A stretch of DNA of 64,000 bases from Actinomycetes bacterium (GTDB lineage Bacteria > Actinomycetota > Actinomycetes > S36-B12), in NCBI GenBank assembly GCA_024641635.1, contig JAHECS010000010.1, forward strand, positions 1 to 64,000, in the 5' to 3' direction. The position numbers and the translations under genes were made by a program. The notes beneath the pieces are model-generated. The model searched no databases. It was not told the origin of the DNA and worked only from the letters and a program-made list of their open reading frames with translations. This document shows positions 12,313 through 30,410 of the stretch, piece by piece. Numbering within the stretch: position 1 is the first letter of the stretch; each line of letters starts with the position of its first letter.

Positions 12313-12929
12313 CGCCTCAAGGCTATCGCCCCGGCAACGCCCAACGTCAGCGCGACGAGCACGCCGACAGCAGCGGCGACGGGGAGCCAGCCGGGCCCGC
12401 TCCCCGAACCTTCCGCCGAGTGGTCACTGCGCGCAGGGGAGGCGGCGACGCCCGCCGGCGGTACGGCTTCCGCCGAGTGGTCACTGCGCGCAGGGGAGGC
12501 GGCAACGCCCGCCGACGGTACGGCTTCCGCCGAGTGGTCACTGCGCGCAACGGTGTACGTGAACGACGACTCGATCGTGTGCCCGTCGACCGACGCGACT
12601 CGGTAGGCGACCGTGTACTCGCCAGCCGGCACGCGAGGGTCGACCTCGACGCTGATGCTCGTGCGTTCGACGAGTGGAGCGCTGGTCGTGATGGAAGCGC
12701 CGTTGGCGTCTCGGACGACGATCGCGGTGCCCACGTCGAGCAGGGCGGAGTCGAACTCGACGACCACCGACTCCGGCGGAGCGTCGAGCACTGCTCCCGC
12801 ATCCGGGCTCGAGCCGATCTGCGAGGAGTGTCCAAGGGCGGGTGACGGCGCCACGAGGGCGAGCACCGGCGCAATGAGAAGTGCCACCGCCAGTGACGCC
12901 AGTCGCCGGGGACCGGGCCGAGTGCTCAT
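12309..12929 (-). CDS. CopC-domain copper resistance protein with C-terminal TM helix
   Basis: Signal peptide then GHSSQIGSSPDAGAVLDAPPESVVVEFDSALLDVGTAIVV...YTVAYRVASVDGHTIESSFTYTV; linker with tandem ARSDHSAEAVP.AGVAASP; TM helix at the C-terminus. Confidence 0.9.
   Translation of the reverse strand: MSTRPGPRRLASLAVALLIAPVLALVAPSPALGHSSQIGSSPDAGAVLDAPPESVVVEFDSALLDVGTAIVVRDANGASITTSAPLVERTSISVEVDPRVPAGEYTVAYRVASVDGHTIESSFTYTVARSDHSAEAVPSAGVAASPARSDHSAEAVPPAGVAASPARSDHSAEGSGSGPGWLPVAAAVGVLVALTLGVAGAIALRR
12416..12549. repeat. 57-bp tandem repeat (~2.4 units) carrying three exact copies of CCGAGTGGTCACTGCGCGCA inside copC
   Basis: Exact 20-mers at 12416-12435, 12473-12492 and 12530-12549, period 57 bp (19 codons). 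The 37-bp spacers differ at two positions (cggcGacg/cggcAacg and gccGgcg/gccGacg). Confidence 0.95.
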
Positions 12930-14161
12930 GCGAACAGCCCCGCACCGACGTAGCCACCCTCGCCCGCCCCGGCCGGGATGACGTACGTCGACGAACCGAT
13001 CGTCGTGTTCCATCGGTTGAACGCATCCGACTCGGCGATGCGTGCCTGCATGGGGATGAACGAGACGCGAGGGTCTCGCATGTAGGCCGCGAACAGCAGG
13101 CCGACATCGTTCGTCCCGTTCAGCATGCCGTTGTCGTACGAGTAGGGCCGACGAAGGATCATCTCCTCGTTGCTCGCGGCATGTGCGACCCGGATGTGTG
13201 CGTCGTGCGGGATGACCGGGAGCCCCAGATCGTCGACGGCGTCGAAGGGCACGGGGTCGGTCTCGTGCTCACCGCCCAGGGGCGCCCCCGTCGCGACCTC
13301 TCGGCCGATGACGGTCTCCTGGGTCGCGCGGTCGAGGATGTCCCACTCGTCCATGTGCATCCTGATCCGCCGAAGGACCACGACGGTTCCCCCACGTGCC
13401 CACGGGGGACCGTCAGCGATCCAGACCGTCGAGTCGAAGGTCTCCTGCTCCGGATTGACGATGCCGTCGACCTGCCCCATGAGGTTCCGGGTAGCGCCAC
13501 TCCCGGGGGAGGCAGGTGCGGGAGACCGGAAGCCCGGCTGCGTCCACACGACCCTGGTGAGCGTCGAGAGGTCCTTGGTGAGCATGCGCACCGAGTGCGC
13601 GAGGGTGAGTGGGTCGTCACTTCCCACCTGGAGCAGCAGGTCGGTCTGCGACCACCGGTCCTCGAGTCGATCTGTCGAGAAGGGCGGGATGTCGGCAAGC
13701 TCGGGAGGGATCTGGCCCGACCTGCCGGCGCGCTCGAAGAGGGGGCGACCCAGTCCGACAGTGACGGTGAGCCCCGCCGGATTGACGGCCAGCTCCGGCT
13801 CGGTGTCGCCCAGTGCCGGCTGCCCCTGCGTCAGGCGTGCGGCGTCGTCAGAAACGAGCCGAAGTGCGGCGTCGGCGTTGTCGGGCGTCGCCTCCAGGAG
13901 GTCGAGGCCGATGAAGGTCTGATGCAGCGCCGAGGGGCTGGAGACACCGGCCTGATGACTGCCGTGGAACGGAACGATGGCCGGCACGCGGGCCTGTCCC
14001 GTCGGCATGACCTCGGCTGGACCGGGTGGCGGAGCCGTGGAGATCTCGGCGGGCGTGTTCTGCCGGACGCCGACGGCATACCCGCCGGCGGCACCGAGGA
14101 TGGCGGCGCCGCCGGCGGCCAGCATGCCGCGCCGGGTGAGGGTCGGACGGCTGTCGGTCAT
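12926..14161 (-). CDS. Tat-exported DyP-type peroxidase
   Basis: MTDSRPTLTRRGMLAAGGAAILGAAGG Tat signal; DyP motifs incl. ATRNLMGQVDGIVNP and HIRVAHAASNEEMILRRPYSYDNG. Overlaps the copC start by 4 nt. Confidence 0.9.
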   Translation of the reverse strand: MTDSRPTLTRRGMLAAGGAAILGAAGGYAVGVRQNTPAEISTAPPPGPAEVMPTGQARVPAIVPFHGSHQAGVSSPSALHQTFIGLDLLEATPDNADAALRLVSDDAARLTQGQPALGDTEPELAVNPAGLTVTVGLGRPLFERAGRSGQIPPELADIPPFSTDRLEDRWSQTDLLLQVGSDDPLTLAHSVRMLTKDLSTLTRVVWTQPGFRSPAPASPGSGATRNLMGQVDGIVNPEQETFDSTVWIADGPPWARGGTVVVLRRIRMHMDEWDILDRATQETVIGREVATGAPLGGEHETDPVPFDAVDDLGLPVIPHDAHIRVAHAASNEEMILRRPYSYDNGMLNGTNDVGLLFAAYMRDPRVSFIPMQARIAESDAFNRWNTTIGSSTYVIPAGAGEGGYVGAGLFA

Positions 14162-14169
14162 GGCGATGC

Positions 14170-14808
14170 CTACCTGCCCGACATGGCGGAGGCTCCGGAG
14201 GAGCCGGACAGGTAGTCCTCGTTGGCCCCGCTGAAGACCTTCCCGAGCACCTTGGTCCTGAGCAGGCCACCATCCGAGGTGATGAGCATGAGGGGCACGA
14301 GGTCGCCGGCCTTGATCGGCTTCGTGAGGCTCATGAACATCACGTGGCTGCCGCCGGGCTTCAGCTCGAGGCTGCCTCCCGCCGGGATCACGAAGCCACG
14401 CATCCGCTGCTGCATGACCATGCTGCCGTCCTTCGCGACGACCTCGTGAAGCTGCAGCACCTTCGACGAGGAGCTGACGGCGCCGACGATGCGGATCGGC
14501 CGACTCGTGGGGTTCCGGACCGTGCCGAACGCGGCGGACATGCCGGTGTCGGCGGCCTTGGCCCAGCCGTCGACCATCGTCAGTGGGGACCGGGAGATGG
14601 TCCTGCCCCGAACCCACGTGGGCTCGGCGCCGACCTTCCTGACGGTGCAGACGTAGACCTTTCCGTGGTCGATCTCGACCATGCCGGACGTCCGGCACGT
14701 GCTGCCGCGTGCAGGGGTGTCGTGCGCGAAGGCGGGGGCGCCGGTGCCAACCGCCAGGGCGATGAGGCCTGCCGCTACAGCGGCCGACCGGGTGAGGCGA
14801 GTGTTCAT
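14170..14808 (-). CDS. PCu(A)C-domain periplasmic copper chaperone
   Basis: Signal peptide; AAFGTVRNPTSRPIRIVGAVSSSSKVLQLHEV...MRGFVIPAGGSLELKPGGSHVMFMSLTKPIKAGD. Confidence 0.9.
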   Translation of the reverse strand: MNTRLTRSAAVAAGLIALAVGTGAPAFAHDTPARGSTCRTSGMVEIDHGKVYVCTVRKVGAEPTWVRGRTISRSPLTMVDGWAKAADTGMSAAFGTVRNPTSRPIRIVGAVSSSSKVLQLHEVVAKDGSMVMQQRMRGFVIPAGGSLELKPGGSHVMFMSLTKPIKAGDLVPLMLITSDGGLLRTKVLGKVFSGANEDYLSGSSGASAMSGR

Positions 14809-14874
14809 GGGGAGTCCTTCGAGGTAGTGATGCGCGAAAGTGGCGCAGCACGACCTCGAGGATCGTGGCTGCGG

Positions 14875-15411
14875 TCAGGTCGGGGCGAGCACGATGCCCT
14901 CGGGTGGTCCCCGTCGCTGGAGGCGGTGGTCGAGATGGCGCAGAACGAGGCCGCGGTCCTCGACGTAGGGAAGGACCGCGTCCATGGGCCGAGCCGGGCG
15001 AACCGGTACAGGGCGGGACCAGCCCAGCGTCGAGCCGAGAAGGGCCGACCATCGGGCCATGAGCCCGTCCGCATGGCAGACGACCATTGCCGCCACGATC
15101 GCTGCGAGCACGTGCCCGGCGACCATCGCCGCCGTCGAGGGTGCCCCCACTGCCGTGCCGTGGGAGTGGGCGGACGCGAACGCGAGGACGACGTGGAGGA
15201 GCGCCTGTCCGGCGAGGAGGAAGGCGAGCAGTCTGGGGAAGCCGAGCGGGCCCCTGGTGACGGAGAGTCCGAGGGCGACGGAGATCGCGGCGGTCACCAC
15301 CACGCCGACCGCGTCGATCGAGCCCTGAGCCGCGGTGTGACCTGCGACGGTGAGCACGGCGAGCGCGGCGCCCACGAGGGCGCCCCTCGCTGACCGACGG
15401 CCCGGGCGCAT
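14875..15411 (-). CDS. Membrane protein of unknown function at the head of the copper cassette
   Basis: 178 aa, four or five hydrophobic helices, His-containing segments (HVVLAFASAHSHG). Confidence 0.65.
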   Translation of the reverse strand: MRPGRRSARGALVGAALAVLTVAGHTAAQGSIDAVGVVVTAAISVALGLSVTRGPLGFPRLLAFLLAGQALLHVVLAFASAHSHGTAVGAPSTAAMVAGHVLAAIVAAMVVCHADGLMARWSALLGSTLGWSRPVPVRPARPMDAVLPYVEDRGLVLRHLDHRLQRRGPPEGIVLAPT

Positions 15412-17377: not shown

Positions 17378-17995
17378 GTGCGCTGGACCACTCGTGAGGT
17401 GCTGACACCTCGGGGACCCGCTCGCCTTCACCGGTCCGGTCGCTCGGCGCGAGGGCAAGCCACCCTGGTGCTGGGCCACGGTGCGGGCGGGGGAGTCGAT
17501 GCGCACGATCTTGCGGCGCTTGCGGCGGGGGTCACGGCAGCCGGGTACGCGGTGGTCCTCGTAGAGCAGCCCTGGCGCGTCGCGGGACGTCGTGTGGCGC
17601 CACGCCCTGACCTGCTGGACGAGGCGTGGCTGTCGGCCGTCGGGGCGTTGCGGCCCTCGGGGCCGATCGTCGTGGGGGGTAGGTCGGCGGGGGCCCGGGT
17701 CGCCTGCCGCACGGCGGGCAGCCTGGGAGCCGTCGGCGTCGTGGCCCTTGCCTTCCCGCTGCATCCGCCGGGCCGACCGGAGCGCACCCGGGCGGAGGAG
17801 CTCCGGGCCTGCCCCGTGCCGGTCCTCGTCATCCAGGGCAGTCGCGACCCGTTCGGGTCGGCCAACGAGGTGGCGGCGGTGGCACGGGGACTGCGCGTGG
17901 TCGAGGTCCACGGCGCCGATCATTCCCTCGCCCGAGGGGACCTCGGACCGGCGGTCGAGGCCGTCGTCGCCCTGCTGGGAAAGGTCGGGGAATGA
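17378..17995 (+). CDS. Alpha/beta-hydrolase, KANL3/Tex30-like
   Basis: [33 protein letters not shown] start at 17378. Confidence 0.8.
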
Positions 17996-18014
17996 TCCCC
18001 GTGGGGGGTGCGTT
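17989..18014 (+). promoter_or_regulatory. Candidate SigR/SigH-type promoter (GGAAT-N18-GTT) upstream of sigR
   Basis: ggaat gatccccgtggggggtgc gtt, spacer 18 nt counted directly; ~90 nt upstream of the sigR ATG. Confidence 0.6.
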
Positions 18015-18104
18015 GCCGGGACTATGCGTCTCATCGCGGCCAGTGACAGCGGCCTGCCGACCCTCGACCTCGCCGGTGGCTCGATCGGGCTAGGCTCGTC
18101 AGCG

Positions 18105-18767
18105 ATGAGCGACGACGACTCCGTCGGTGGCGCGGCGGTCCGGCCGGATGAGGCCAGCGAGGCGACGCCCGAGTCGCCGCTGGCACGATCCGCGCGCTTC
18201 GAGCGGGATGCGATGCAGTACCTGGACCAGCTCTACGGAGCGGCCATGCGCATGACGCGAAACCCCGCGGACGCGGAGGACCTCGTCCAGGAGACCTACA
18301 TGAAGGCCTTCGCCGCGTTCGACTCCTTCACTGACGGCACCAACCTCAAGGCGTGGCTGTTCCGGATCCTCACGAACACGTACATCAACATCTACCGCAA
18401 GAAGCAGCGGCAGCCCTACCAGACCGGCACCGACGACCTCACCGACTGGCAGATCCACGAGGCGGAGAGCCACACCTCGCGGGGCCTGCGATCGGCCGAG
18501 GCCGAGGCGCTGGATCGGCTCGCGGACGTCGATGTCGTGGAGGCGCTGGCGGCCATGCCCGAGGACTTCCGCATGGCCGTGTACCTCGCCGACGTCGAGG
18601 GGTTCTCCTACAAGGAGATCGCGGACATCATGGAGACCCCGATCGGCACCGTGATGTCACGTCTCCACCGCGGTCGAAAACTCCTGCGCGAGCTCCTCGA
18701 GGACTACGCGATCGAGCGCGGACTCATCCCCGCTGCCATCTCCGGAGAGGGAGGTGACCAGTCATGA
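18105..18767 (+). CDS. sigR: ECF sigma factor, SigR/SigH family
   Basis: [87 protein letters not shown]. Confidence 0.93.
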
Positions 18768-19045
18768 GCTGCGGCAAGCCGCACGAGACCGACTGCTCCG
18801 AGGTGCTCTCACTGGTCTACGACTTCCTCGACAGTGAGATCGACGACGCCGACCGGGCTCGCATCGTGCAGCACCTCGACGAGTGCCAGCCATGTCTGCG
18901 CCAGTACGGGCTGGAGCAGGCGGTCAAGGCCCTCGTCCACCGCTCCTGCACCTGCGAGCATGCCCCGGAGCGACTCCGGGTCCAGATCGTGACACGCATC
19001 CGCCAGATCTCGATCACCTATCGCTCCACTGAGTTCGGCGACTAG
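18764..19045 (+). CDS. rsrA: Zinc-containing (ZAS) anti-sigma factor, RsrA/RshA family
   Basis: Follows sigR with 4-nt overlap; [36 protein letters not shown] (HxxxCxxC). Confidence 0.93.
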
Positions 19046-19904: not shown

Positions 19905-21518
19905 GTGGCCACGACCCGGATCGAGAACGCCGTCGTGTGGACCGGCATTCCGGCCGCCGGAGGCTACGTCGAGTCCGATGCCCTCGCCTTCGATGAACGC
20001 GGAATCCTCGCGGTCGGTGACGCCGCGCGCGGGCTGGATGCTGACGTGGCGATCGACGCAGGCGGGGCCTTCGTGTGCAGTGCGTTCCGGGACGGACACG
20101 TGCATCCGATCGCCGGCGGCTTCGAGCATCAGCTTGCGCCCGTGGGCGACCAGAGGACCGTCCAGGGGATCGCTGCTGCCGTCGGCCGGTGGGCCGTCGA
20201 GCACCCGGAGGCGGAGTGGGTGCGTGGCGAGGGGTTCGACCTGGCCCTCGCGCCCGGCGGCATCTTCCGTGCGGAGTGGCTGGACGCCGTCGTGCCGGAT
20301 CGTCCGGTCGTCCTGCGTGCGTCGGACTACCACACCGTCTGGGTCAACAGCGAGACGCTGAAGCGCGTCGGCTACACGGATCGAACCCCGCAGCCCCACG
20401 ACGGCGAGATCGTGCGGGACGAGGCGGGCCATCCGGTGGGGACACTCCGGGAGTGGGGCGCCTGGCGACCCGTGTACGACCGCATGCCCGCGATGACGAC
20501 CCGTCAGGCCCTCGCCGCCCTCGATCACGCCAGCACGACGCTGGCAGCGTCGGGGCTCGCCTGGGTGCAGGACGCCTGGGTCGAGCCGCACGACGTCGAT
20601 TCGTGGCTGGCGGCGGTCGCTGCCGGTGTGTTCCGACTCCGGGCCGATCTCGGCCTGTGGTGCGACCCGAACACGTGGCATGGCCAGCTCGCTCACTTCA
20701 GCGCGACCCGCGACCGGGTCGGCGTCGAGGCCGCTCATCGCCTGACGGCCGGCACGGTCAAGTTCTTCGCCGACGGTGTCATCGAGTCCGGTACCGGAGC
20801 CATGCTCGAGCCGTACTGCGACTGTCCGCACTCGAAGGGCCTGGCCAACTGGGAGCCGGACGAGCTCAACGCGGCAGTCGCGGCCGTCGATGCACTCGGC
20901 TTCGCGCCGCACATCCATGCCATCGGCGATGCGGCGGTTCGCACGGCCCTCGACGCGATCGAGTTCGCCGCGGTCGTGAACGGGCCCAAGACCCGTCGTC
21001 CGACCATCGCGCACGCCCAGCTCGTCGACGACCTCGACCTTCGACGCTTCGCCGAGCTGGGCGTCATCGCCAACTTCGAGCCGTACTGGGCGATGCACGA
21101 CTCCTACCAGGACGAGCTCACGGCGCCGCGGCTCGGACCCGCCCGCACCGGCCGTCAGTACATGATGCGGACCATCCGGGACACGGGTGCGGTGATCTCG
21201 TTCGGCAGCGACTGGCCGGTGTCGACGTGCGCACCGCTGGCCGGAATCCAGGTCGCGGTGACCCGTCAGGCGACGGACGGGAGCGGTCGTGGGCCCTGGA
21301 TGCCGGAGGAGCGGCTGACCGTCGAGCAGGCCCTGCTGGCCTACACGTCCGGCGTCGCCTTCCAGGCGGGGGACGGACGAGGCGGCGTCATCCGACCGGG
21401 CAGTCGGGCCGATGTGGTCCTGCTGGAACGCGACCCGCGTAGGGTGCGACCGTTGGAGATCGAGGGCATCGAGGTGCTGGGCACCTGGTGCGACGGCGAC
21501 CGCGTCCACGGAGGGTGA
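19905..21518 (+). CDS. Amidohydrolase family protein (YtcJ-like)
   Basis: GGAFVCSAFRDGHVHPIAGG, VNSETLKRVGYTDRTPQPHDGEIVRDEAGHPVGTLREWG, HIHAIGDAAVRTALDAIE, FGSDWPVSTCAPLAGIQVAVTRQ. Confidence 0.9.
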   Translation: MATTRIENAVVWTGIPAAGGYVESDALAFDERGILAVGDAARGLDADVAIDAGGAFVCSAFRDGHVHPIAGGFEHQLAPVGDQRTVQGIAAAVGRWAVEHPEAEWVRGEGFDLALAPGGIFRAEWLDAVVPDRPVVLRASDYHTVWVNSETLKRVGYTDRTPQPHDGEIVRDEAGHPVGTLREWGAWRPVYDRMPAMTTRQALAALDHASTTLAASGLAWVQDAWVEPHDVDSWLAAVAAGVFRLRADLGLWCDPNTWHGQLAHFSATRDRVGVEAAHRLTAGTVKFFADGVIESGTGAMLEPYCDCPHSKGLANWEPDELNAAVAAVDALGFAPHIHAIGDAAVRTALDAIEFAAVVNGPKTRRPTIAHAQLVDDLDLRRFAELGVIANFEPYWAMHDSYQDELTAPRLGPARTGRQYMMRTIRDTGAVISFGSDWPVSTCAPLAGIQVAVTRQATDGSGRGPWMPEERLTVEQALLAYTSGVAFQAGDGRGGVIRPGSRADVVLLERDPRRVRPLEIEGIEVLGTWCDGDRVHGG

Positions 21519-21519
21519 C

Positions 21520-22263
21520 ATGCCGCTGACCCCGGGTGAGGGCGATCGGCTGCTGCTGCACCTCCAGGCCTCGCTGGCCCAGCGTCGCCGCGACCGAGGG
21601 CTGCTACTCAACGTGCCCGAGGCGACGGCGCTGATCGCCGATGCGGTGTGCGAGTGGGCGCGGGATGGGCTCGGCATGGTGGAGACCCGGGATCGGGCAC
21701 GCACGCTCCTCACGATCGACGACGTGCTCCCCGGCGTGCCGGACGCCCTCGCCGAGGTTCGCGTCGAGGCGCGGTTCGACGACGGCACACGGCTCGTGGT
21801 CGTGAAGGACCCGTTCGCACGGGGACCGGAACCCGATGGTGAACAGCAGCCGGCCCCGACCCCCACGGTGACCCTGGACGTCGCGAACGAGTCGCGCACC
21901 GCCATCGGGTTGACGTCGCACATTCACCTCGCCGAGGTCAATCCAAGGCTCCGGCTGGACCGTGCGGCCGCGTTCGGGCTGAGGCCGGCGCTGCGCACGG
22001 GCGAGACGGTCTGGATCCGGCCGGGCGAGACGATCCGCCTCCCAGCACTGCCTATCGCGGGCGCGCGCGTCGTGGTCGGCAACTCCGGCGTGGTCGATGG
22101 CCCCCTCGACGATCCGGCCGTCCGCGAGAGGGCGGTCGCCATGCTGCGGTCGTGCGGGTACCTCGACCTCGTCGACGGCGTGCCGGTCGGGGATGCGTCG
22201 ACCGCGGACTCCGCGGTGGCAGGAGTCATGGCCGCCGACCGCGACCACCGGGAGGGTTCGTGA
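21520..22263 (+). CDS. ureAB: Fused urease gamma/beta (UreA-UreB) subunit-like protein
   Basis: N-terminal LTPGEGDRLLLHLQASLAQRRRDRGLLLNVPEATALIADAVCEWARDG (UreA-like); C-terminal LDVANESRTAIGLTSHIHLAEVNPRLRLDRAAAFGLR (UreB-like). Confidence 0.88.
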   Translation: MPLTPGEGDRLLLHLQASLAQRRRDRGLLLNVPEATALIADAVCEWARDGLGMVETRDRARTLLTIDDVLPGVPDALAEVRVEARFDDGTRLVVVKDPFARGPEPDGEQQPAPTPTVTLDVANESRTAIGLTSHIHLAEVNPRLRLDRAAAFGLRPALRTGETVWIRPGETIRLPALPIAGARVVVGNSGVVDGPLDDPAVRERAVAMLRSCGYLDLVDGVPVGDASTADSAVAGVMAADRDHREGS

Positions 22264-23912
22264 GCCGCGAGTTCGGCCCGCTCGAGGGCGACGTCGTGGT
22301 CCTGGGCGACACGCACCTTCGGCTTCGGGTCACAGAAAGGGTCCGGGACGAGGGCGAGGAGCTGCACGTCGGATTCGCCAAGACCGGGCGCGACGGCATC
22401 GGCCTGCGCGCGGTGGGCGCGCGGGAGTCCTGCGACGTCCTCCTGACGAACGTCGTCGTCCTGGATCCCGTGGACGGCGTCCGCGTCGCGAGCATCGGGA
22501 TCCGGGCGGGCCGGATCAGCGGCATCGGCAAGGCCGGCAACCCCGACACGTCGGACGGAATCGACGTCGTGGTCGGCACGGGCACCGTCGTGATCGACGG
22601 CGACGGCCTGATCGCCACGCCGGGGGGCATCGACACCCACGTGCACACCCTCAGCCCGCGCGTGTTCGAGGCGGAGCTGTCCTCGGGTGTGACCACCGTG
22701 ATCGGCCAGGAGGCCGGACCCATGTGGGGGGTCGGTCTGGGCTCGGCGTGGGTGCTCGAGCGTGGGCTGCGGGCGATGGAGGTCTACCCCGTGAACGTGG
22801 GGCTCCTCGGGCGCGGATCCTCGTCGCGCTCGGACTCCATCAGGGAGTCGATCGGCGCCCACGTGTGCGGGCTCAAGGTGCACGAGGACACCGGAGCCAC
22901 CCTGCGGACCATCGACACCGCGCTGCGTGTGGCGGACGAGTTCGACGTCCAGGTGGCCCTCCACACGGATGGGCTCAACGAGACGATGTCGGTGGCCGAC
23001 ACCCTCGCGGTGCTCGACGGGCGCGTCCTGCACGCCTACCACGTGGAGGGCTGCGGGGGCGGACACGCACCCAACGTTCTCCAGCTCGCGGGAGTCGAGA
23101 ACGTGCTCGCGTCCTCCACGAACCCGACGCTGCCGTTCGGCGTGAACGCGGTGGCCGAGCACGTCGACATGATCCTTCTCTCACATGGCATGAACCCGGA
23201 CAACGACAGTGACGTGCGGATCGCCCGTTCCCGGGTGCGGGGCGTGACGATGGCGGCCGAGGGCCGACTGCACGACCTCGGCGTCATCGGCGTGACCTCG
23301 TCCGACGCCCAGGGGATGGGCCGGGCGGGGGAGACGTGGTGGCGGACCTTCGCCCTTGCCGGGGTGCTGGCCGGGCTGGACCCCGAACGGGACTCAGGAT
23401 CCGACGACAACGACCGCATCCTGCGGTACCTCGCGAAGATCACCATCAACCCGGCCCTCGTGCACGGGCTGGCGCACGAGGTGGGCCGGCTCGCGGTCGG
23501 ACACCTCGCCGACATCGTGCTCTGGCGGCCGGAGCTGTTCGCGGCGAAGCCGCAGCTGGTCATCAAGGGTGGGTTCCCGGCCTGGGGGGTCACCGGCGAC
23601 CCCAACGCCACCATCGACTCCGCCGAACCGCTGGTGCTCGGACCGCAGTACGGCGGTCTGGGAGCGGTCCCGTCCGACCTCTCGGTGATCTTCTCCAACG
23701 CGGCCGCCGTGTCCGAGAATCCGGCCCCCGGGGCCAGGCGCACCGTGGCGGTCCGCGACTGCCGCACCGTCCGATCGGGCGACCTGGTGCGCAACGGCGT
23801 CATCGGGGACGTCGCGGTCGCGGACGACGGCTCGGAGGTGCGCTGGAACGGCGCCCCCCTCACGATGGACCCGGTCACCGACGTGCCGATCTCCCGACTG
23901 CACTTCTGGTAG
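22260..23912 (+). CDS. ureC: Divergent urease alpha (UreC)-like subunit
   Basis: Ni-site motifs GGIDTHVHTLSP, GLKVHEDTGAT, HTDGLNE, HVEGCGGGHAP, TSSDAQGMGR; flap reads LLSHGMN instead of the usual MVCHHLD. Confidence 0.88.
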   Translation: MSREFGPLEGDVVVLGDTHLRLRVTERVRDEGEELHVGFAKTGRDGIGLRAVGARESCDVLLTNVVVLDPVDGVRVASIGIRAGRISGIGKAGNPDTSDGIDVVVGTGTVVIDGDGLIATPGGIDTHVHTLSPRVFEAELSSGVTTVIGQEAGPMWGVGLGSAWVLERGLRAMEVYPVNVGLLGRGSSSRSDSIRESIGAHVCGLKVHEDTGATLRTIDTALRVADEFDVQVALHTDGLNETMSVADTLAVLDGRVLHAYHVEGCGGGHAPNVLQLAGVENVLASSTNPTLPFGVNAVAEHVDMILLSHGMNPDNDSDVRIARSRVRGVTMAAEGRLHDLGVIGVTSSDAQGMGRAGETWWRTFALAGVLAGLDPERDSGSDDNDRILRYLAKITINPALVHGLAHEVGRLAVGHLADIVLWRPELFAAKPQLVIKGGFPAWGVTGDPNATIDSAEPLVLGPQYGGLGAVPSDLSVIFSNAAAVSENPAPGARRTVAVRDCRTVRSGDLVRNGVIGDVAVADDGSEVRWNGAPLTMDPVTDVPISRLHFW

Positions 23913-29561: not shown

Positions 29562-29975
29562 CTAGGCCTGCTTGGTCTCCCAGAAGATCGCGGCGATCTC
29601 ATCGATCTTGGCCAGCAGGTCGTCGGCCACGGCCACGTCGGTGGTGCCCTTCGTGCCGCCTGCGCCGGCCAGCTTCGTCGCCTGGTTGAACAGGTCGTTC
29701 AGCTGGGGGTACTTCTCGAAGTGCGGGGCCTTGAAGTAGTCGGTCCACAGCACCCAGAGGTGCTCCTTGACCATGTGGGAGCGCTCCTCCTTGATGGAGA
29801 TCGCCCGCGCCTTGAACTCGGGATCCTCCGAGGCGTGGTACTTCTGCATGCAGGCCTTGACCGACTCGGCCTCGAGCCGCGCCTGCGCGGGGTCGTACAC
29901 GCCGCAGGGGAGGTCGCAGTGGGCATACGCCGTGGTGCGAGGGGCGAGAACCTTGGTGATCAGACTCGTGAGCAT
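29562..29975 (-). CDS. sodN: Nickel superoxide dismutase
   Basis: MLTSLITKVLAPRTTAYA leader followed by the Ni-hook HCDLPCGVYDPAQ. Confidence 0.97.
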   Translation of the reverse strand: MLTSLITKVLAPRTTAYAHCDLPCGVYDPAQARLEAESVKACMQKYHASEDPEFKARAISIKEERSHMVKEHLWVLWTDYFKAPHFEKYPQLNDLFNQATKLAGAGGTKGTTDVAVADDLLAKIDEIAAIFWETKQA

Positions 29976-30065
29976 GTGACTCCTTCGGGACGGGGGAGAG
30001 CCGCGAGCGGCATCCCCTAGACCATAGCGCCGAACCGGCAGCCCGGCAGCAGGCAGGATGAGGGC

Positions 30066-30371
30066 GTGCTCCCCATCTCCCGTGTCCGGATCGTCGGCCC
30101 GTCGATGGAGCCGGCCCTCCGCAACGGTGATTGGTGGCTGGTCAGCCGGCGCGGGGAGCCGAAGGTGGGCGACGTGGTGCTGATGACGCATCCCCGTCGG
30201 CCGGCCCTGCTTGTCGTGAAGCGCCTCAGCCGGCGGGAGGACGCAGGCTGGTGGGTGCTCGGGGACAACGCGGACGCGAGCGAGGACAGCCGCGACTTCG
30301 GCGTGGTCCCGGATGCGAACGTGGTGGGTCGCGTCACATTCCGCTACTTCCCGCTGCGTCGTCGCGACTAG
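30066..30371 (+). CDS. sodX: Signal peptidase-like NiSOD maturation protease
   Basis: VGPSMEPALRNGDWWLVSRRGEPKVGDVVLM and VLGDNADASEDSRDFG; divergent from sodN. Confidence 0.9.
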   Translation: MLPISRVRIVGPSMEPALRNGDWWLVSRRGEPKVGDVVLMTHPRRPALLVVKRLSRREDAGWWVLGDNADASEDSRDFGVVPDANVVGRVTFRYFPLRRRD

Positions 30372-30410
30372 GCGTGCGAGCATGGGCGACCGTCAAAGGA
30401 GCAAGCCGAC

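Follow-up and report, generated by a model that had tools for sequence, protein, structure and literature searches.

A 64,000-nucleotide stretch of a freshwater-type Actinomycetes bacterium of the S36-B12 lineage (contig JAHECS010000010.1, positions 1 to 64,000; hereafter the window) carries a gene unit, ytcJ-ureAB-ureC, whose last two genes resemble those of nickel urease. Our analysis shows that the unit is genuine and conserved and that its UreC-like protein belongs to a variant clade of the urease family that seems to have been overlooked, and we consider that the UreABC-like enzyme is probably an accessory-free hydrolase of a ureido-amine, N-carbamoylputrescine. A ureido compound as the substrate is well supported, and N-carbamoylputrescine is the likeliest, not the sole, candidate. 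The host assembly is a draft genome of 3.06 Mb, 96.9% complete, and the genome-wide statements on presence or absence below are based on profile searches.

The UreC-like clade and its lack of accessory genes

The UreC-like protein of the window shares about 44% identity with ureases. With NCBI's urease-alpha equivalog model TIGR01792 it scores 543 bits, under the cut-off of 680; its clade relatives score 498-640 bits and canonical urease controls 976-978. Its best solved relatives are nevertheless ureases (Klebsiella urease, 481 bits), and an AlphaFold2 model (mean predicted local distance difference test, pLDDT, 77.6) matched ureases at a template-modeling (TM) score of 0.90, while the next families reached 0.47. 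In a 73-row maximum-likelihood tree, the canonical ureases formed one group with support of 100/99 and the window protein fell outside it, which answers the phylogenetic question raised by the initial annotation. The copies from Nanopelagicales and from Streptomyces-like genomes formed their own clade at 100/97, and a deep AguA-linked relative (L186) joined this clade at 100/99, although its branch is long and its placement is less sure than the support implies. Three further UreC-like proteins that lack accessory genes (L054, L185 and L189) make up another, separate set and have a larger deletion in the loop of the Ala167 region; L189 adjoins polyamine-type transporter genes, no ureAB was called near L185, and the grouping of the three in the tree may reflect long-branch attraction. 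Four metagenome-assembled genome records titled Bifidobacterium breve (L042, L043, L053 and L057) contain genes 73-76% identical to the Nanopelagicales-type unit, and these titles look wrong for their sequences.

The absence of ureDEFG from the window, as reported in the initial annotation, extends to the whole genome for UreF, UreD and UreG; UreE was not searched separately. UreF and UreD were absent, and the only UreG match scored 14 bits against a cut-off of 204, so that there is no genuine UreG, and we dropped the possibility that these genes lie elsewhere in the genome. Among 147 relatives, 63 of which gave a UreC match, UreF was present in four and UreD in four; in three of the UreF genomes (G006, G099 and G103) there is a second UreC, which is canonical and 44% identical, and the match in the fourth (G075) is only partial. 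When we searched the available flanks of the loci for UreG, UreF and UreD, with tblastn for UreG, these genes were found near 60 of the 68 canonical loci but near none of the 57 non-canonical ones (0/44 in Nanopelagicales, the window included, 0/9 in Streptomyces-like genomes and 0/4 among other odd loci). In one Streptomyces-like genome having both kinds of UreC, the accessory genes adjoin the canonical copy only.

The three genes of the unit lie on the forward strand and are tightly packed, as the initial annotation had described. The first, ytcJ (19905..21518), encodes a YtcJ-like amidohydrolase of 537 residues with an Amidohydro_3 domain, and starts with GTG downstream of a GAGGAG that resembles a ribosome-binding site; ureAB (21520..22263) starts with ATG 1 nucleotide past the ytcJ stop and encodes a UreAB-like gamma/beta fusion of 247 residues with Urease_gamma and Urease_beta domains; ureC (22260..23912) starts with GTG, overlaps ureAB by 4 nucleotides and encodes the UreC-like catalytic subunit of 550 residues with Urease_alpha and Amidohydro_1 domains. 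These are real genes, because the bias of GC content by codon position is strong in all three (0.87-0.93 at the third position) and homologues of ureC with 57-89% identity occur across dozens of genomes. The gamma part of UreAB passes TIGR00193, whereas its beta domain is under the cut-off of TIGR00192, and the fusion model NF009671 gives 218 bits against 243. A gene for a PdtaS-like kinase downstream was dropped as a member of the unit, since it adjoins the unit in close relatives only.

Metal ligands and the substrate pocket

In the alignment, all the metal ligands of urease are kept in the window protein (H127, H129, K206, H235, H261 and D349), and H208, H309 and R325 are the equivalents of His219, His320 and Arg336 of Klebsiella aerogenes urease (KAU). 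None of the ligands varies among clade members, even at 56% identity, and this includes the Lys that urease carries in carbamylated form. The initial annotation was right that the presumed nickel ligands are kept but counted the His of GGGHAP as one of them; that residue aligns with KAU His280, and the true fourth His is H261 in the motif HAYH, which aligns with Klebsiella His272. Such conservation makes it highly improbable that the protein is a paralogue that has lost catalysis, or hydrolysis at least, and is retained for some other function, as the loss of the accessory proteins, and in many members of the flap Cys, might suggest; its operon partners are enzymes as well.

The pocket itself differs clade-wide from that of canonical ureases. 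In KAU numbering, G157Q and G158E occur in 34 of 34 clade members, A363G and S361A in 34 and A276C in 33, while Thr249 is replaced by Gly in 31 and by Ser in three. The clade also lacks four residues of the Ala167 loop. This deletion and the Gln-Glu in place of Gly-Gly lie together in a clade-specific segment, GQEAGPMWGVGLGSAWVLERGL, corresponding to UreC residues 149-170 (22704..22769, forward strand). Trp222 is replaced by Thr, Met or Leu and His321 by Gly, Ala, Ser, Asn or Asp, whereas His219, Gly277 and His320 are kept. The motif changes listed in the initial annotation hold, but it missed the Ala167-loop deletion, G157Q-G158E and A363G, which are more telling. It had also singled out the change of the flap Cys (Cys319) to Ser, which we dropped as a key change; this residue is Ser in the window protein and is C, S, V, A or T among relatives, close ones included.

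Two backbone oxygens of urease, from Ala170 and Ala366 in the Sporosarcina pasteurii enzyme (KAU 167 and 363), bind the NH2 group of urea, and the leaving group is the target of the flap His (PMC7433671). Judging from the alignment, the changes in the clade would make room for a substituent on the nitrogen, and the new invariant Glu, which is beside the NH2 pocket in the sequence, could bind a cation. A possible mechanism can be considered as follows. The urease fold and the residues that bind the two metals are retained, as seen in the alignment and the model, while the pocket for the urea NH2 would be opened next to the invariant Glu, so as to accept mono-substituted ureas, most likely N-carbamoylputrescine. 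The metal-bridging hydroxide would then attack the ureido carbon as it does in urease, yielding putrescine, CO2 and NH3, and the metal centre would form by itself without UreD, UreF and UreG. In several lineages, AguA encoded in the same operon would convert agmatine to the substrate, and PotABCD-type transporters would import agmatine or polyamines; the linkage of both to the unit is observed, and their substrates are presumed. In the operon of the window, YtcJ might be a deaminase or deiminase that feeds the UreABC-like enzyme, turning a guanidine into a urea as AguA does, with the same cation or one related to it as substrate.

Genomic linkage and the choice of substrate

We analyzed the neighbors of ureAB-ureC at 46 loci and then in a phylum-wide sample. 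Two themes recurred at the 46 loci: genes for a polyamine transporter resembling PotABCD, and one or the other of ytcJ and aguA. An apparent operon aguA-ureAB-ureC is present in two Nanopelagicales lineages (G041, G023 and G034; G107 and G140). The phylum-wide sample added UreC copies of 57-60% identity in a genus of Streptomyces-like genomes of 7-10 Mb (g41), which we infer to be Streptomyces, where the order is ureAB-ureC-aguA at 9 of 9 loci, with gaps ranging from an overlap to about 110 nucleotides where both ends were called; in a third lineage (G355), aguA follows ureC. Because the same partners are found in different orders in separate lineages, aguA and ureAB-ureC seem to share a pathway. 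A UreC-like gene is present in 32 of the 36 relatives that bear AguA (Fisher 3.6e-11, uncorrected for phylogeny), and the solved structures nearest to the Streptomyces-like AguA are those of agmatine deiminases. The relatives show the genomic context expected of an N-carbamoylputrescine amidohydrolase (EC 3.5.1.53), namely aguA and polyamine uptake genes beside the unit, whereas in the genome of the window aguA lies on another contig. The initial annotation had taken the amidohydrolase preceding the urease-like genes as the clue to the substrate, but the deciding evidence is this linkage in relatives. Its interpretation is thus right in part; the broader proposal, a divergent relative of urease with a substrate other than urea and possibly a two-step ureide pathway, is supported by the phylogeny, the absence of accessory genes and the changes in the pocket.

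At one locus (L175), a 20-kb stretch around ureAB-ureC encodes four AguA-family paralogues, and three of them belong to another type and seem to have signal peptides. In a family of small genomes (f6; L125:12303-18001, reverse strand), genes for a fused large and medium diol dehydratase subunit, its reactivase and an FmdA-like amidase precede ytcJ-ureAB-ureC, an unusual set of neighbors for this unit. Diol dehydratase, FmdA, a C45 acylase and a D-amino-acid-dehydrogenase-like protein were considered as core partners and dropped, as each is a neighbor in one lineage only.

The YtcJ slot is harder to interpret. The protein matches Pfam PF07969 (Amidohydro_3) at 278 bits and its presumed metal ligands (H65, H67, K286, H338, H370 and D436) are invariant, but a structure search gave no clue to its substrate, the best matches being the uncharacterized hydrolases 3icj and 3igh, followed by mixed deaminases and hydrolases. 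Among genomes with a UreC-like gene, eight have both an adjacent ytcJ and a genomic aguA, 25 have ytcJ only, 24 aguA only and five neither. This trend toward exclusion (Fisher 4e-6, uncorrected for relatedness) is not a strict either-or rule, which holds only in part; the genome of the window has both genes, and of the five with neither, four are fragments at contig edges, and the genome of the fifth (G136) is 72% complete. From its position, YtcJ might replace AguA in the lineage of the window, perhaps as a second guanidine deiminase, although this is little more than a guess. The joint proposal is therefore put forward tentatively, and we regard it as possible rather than probable: the urease fold would have been repurposed as an accessory-free N-carbamoylputrescine hydrolase that is taken for a second urease across the Nanopelagicales and the Streptomyces-like genomes, and in the lineage of the window YtcJ would have replaced agmatine deiminase, so that the amidohydrolase fold would serve both steps.

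Several observations weigh against N-carbamoylputrescine hydrolysis. The operon of the window pairs with YtcJ, its aguA being on the separate contig. Most of the operon-linked AguA proteins score 246-326 bits, below the agmatine-deiminase equivalog cut-off of 381.8, and the canonical AguA near a UreC-like gene in L119 (552 bits) is encoded on the opposite strand. The commonest linked type lacks Asp220, the residue that binds the amine of agmatine in plant AguA (PMC6447857), and two of the three paired AguA types lack the amine-binding Asp/Glu. In the model of UreC, the pLDDT is below 50 at residues 152-160, so that no distance between the Glu and the substrate can be claimed. Other enzymes could also serve the step. 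Although AguB exceeded its cut-off in 0 of 147 relatives and in 0 of 10 in a second set, and putrescine transcarbamylase in 0 of 41 genomes, AguY-type amidases were not searched genome-wide, and an AguB-like nitrilase of about 240 bits is present in 66 of the 147 genomes, including that of the window, where it could supply the activity; it is absent from 17 of the 32 genomes having both aguA and a UreC-like gene. Finally, SpeB-like genes pass the cut-off in 26 of 41 genomes, so that urea could be made in the cells. In several genomes (G000:C6:29064-38752, G103:C20, G115:C152 and G036:C32), the gene for this nitrilase lies within about 12 kb of a SpeB-like gene, which suggests that the two belong to another guanidino or ureido pathway.

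Because the commonest AguA type lacks Asp220 and the scores are below the cut-off, agmatine may not be the guanidino compound used in every case. The same ureido-hydrolase chemistry might thus act on a different compound made by the AguA-like protein or YtcJ, such as 4-ureidobutyrate, an N-carbamoyl amino acid or another ureido-amine, an explanation closest to the ureide pathway first suggested, which we think rather unlikely overall. The two AguA types without the amine-binding Asp/Glu and the oxidoreductase and acylase-like genes that follow the unit in one lineage would fit it, whereas the agmatine deiminases nearest to the Streptomyces-like AguA, the recurrent PotA/B/C/D-type importers and the canonical AguA in L119 argue against it. 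We consider it distinctly unlikely that the enzyme is a true urease whose metal centre self-assembles or uses unknown helpers, and which receives urea from agmatinase-like enzymes. The retained ligands and the equivalents of His219, His320 and Arg336, the match of the model to urease, the SpeB-like genes in most of the genomes tested and the ability of the fold to use another metal, as in Helicobacter mustelae UreA2B2 (3qga), are consistent with such a urease; however, the urea NH2 pocket is changed throughout the clade, the accessory genes are lacking, the protein belongs to a separate clade below the urease cut-off, and the AguA with which it is paired makes no urea.

Apart from the unit, the window encodes a nickel superoxide dismutase at 29562-29970 on the reverse strand, inside an open reading frame at 29562-30383 (TIGR02753, 141 bits, cut-off 90), with the metal hook HCDLPCGVYDP, and therefore the organism handles nickel. 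A Dyp-type peroxidase of the EfeB/iron-uptake type lies at 12926-15052 on the reverse strand (320 bits, below the equivalog cut-off of 428), and a SigH/SigR-type extracytoplasmic function sigma factor (TIGR02947), followed by a small Cys-rich RsrA-type anti-sigma-like protein, is encoded at 17592-19045 on the forward strand.

Comparison with known systems

Urease is the textbook case of a one-substrate enzyme with a dedicated nickel-insertion machinery. If N-carbamoylputrescine hydrolysis is correct, the clade would allow one to test why urease takes only urea and why it needs accessory proteins, would explain the long-noted orphan second urease of Streptomyces, would correct automatic ureC annotation, for example in freshwater surveys of urea use, and would add an enzyme for the recycling of polyamine nitrogen in aquatic actinobacteria. 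The enzyme shares with nickel urease UreABC (K. aerogenes, 2kau; S. pasteurii, 1ubp) the subunit architecture, the fold (TM 0.90, 43% identity), the six metal ligands and His219, His320 and Arg336. It differs in lying outside the canonical clade and below the urease-alpha cut-off, in the shorter A167 loop, in G157Q, G158E, T249G, A363G and the loss of W222, and in its linkage to aguA or ytcJ instead of UreD, UreF and UreG. The iron urease UreA2B2 of H. mustelae likewise has the urease fold; it uses a metal other than nickel and is not known to depend on the nickel accessory set, but it is a true urease that hydrolyzes urea.

The same accessory-free gene set is known from S. coelicolor as SCO5525-5526, an ure(AB)C pair, and SCO5527 of that species is an AguA homologue; the Streptomyces-like loci analyzed here have the order ureAB-ureC-aguA. 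A urease cluster consisting of ure(AB)C only has been described in S. coelicolor and S. avermitilis (PMC2492869), and SCO5525-5526 are listed as urea-utilizing ureABC, separately from SCO5527, which appears with the homologues of proteins from the arginine decarboxylase pathway of Pseudomonas (PMC3293853). The pair has thus been published as a second urease or urea-utilizing cluster with no functional link to SCO5527, and we found no such link in the full-text literature, a search that left most subscription papers and preprints uncovered; within the same scope, no urease-fold enzyme has been proposed for the N-carbamoylputrescine step. AguY, an unrelated amidase, was found through its adjacency to aguA and proven biochemically to be an N-carbamoylputrescine amidohydrolase, in a paper in which urease goes unmentioned (Li et al. 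2025, PMC12283126). This case is a precedent for the proposal made here. The UreABC-like enzyme would share its proposed reaction and its place beside aguA with AguB (nitrilase fold), AguY (amidase fold) and putrescine transcarbamylase, whose folds are unrelated to it, and would therefore represent a further non-homologous solution to the same step.

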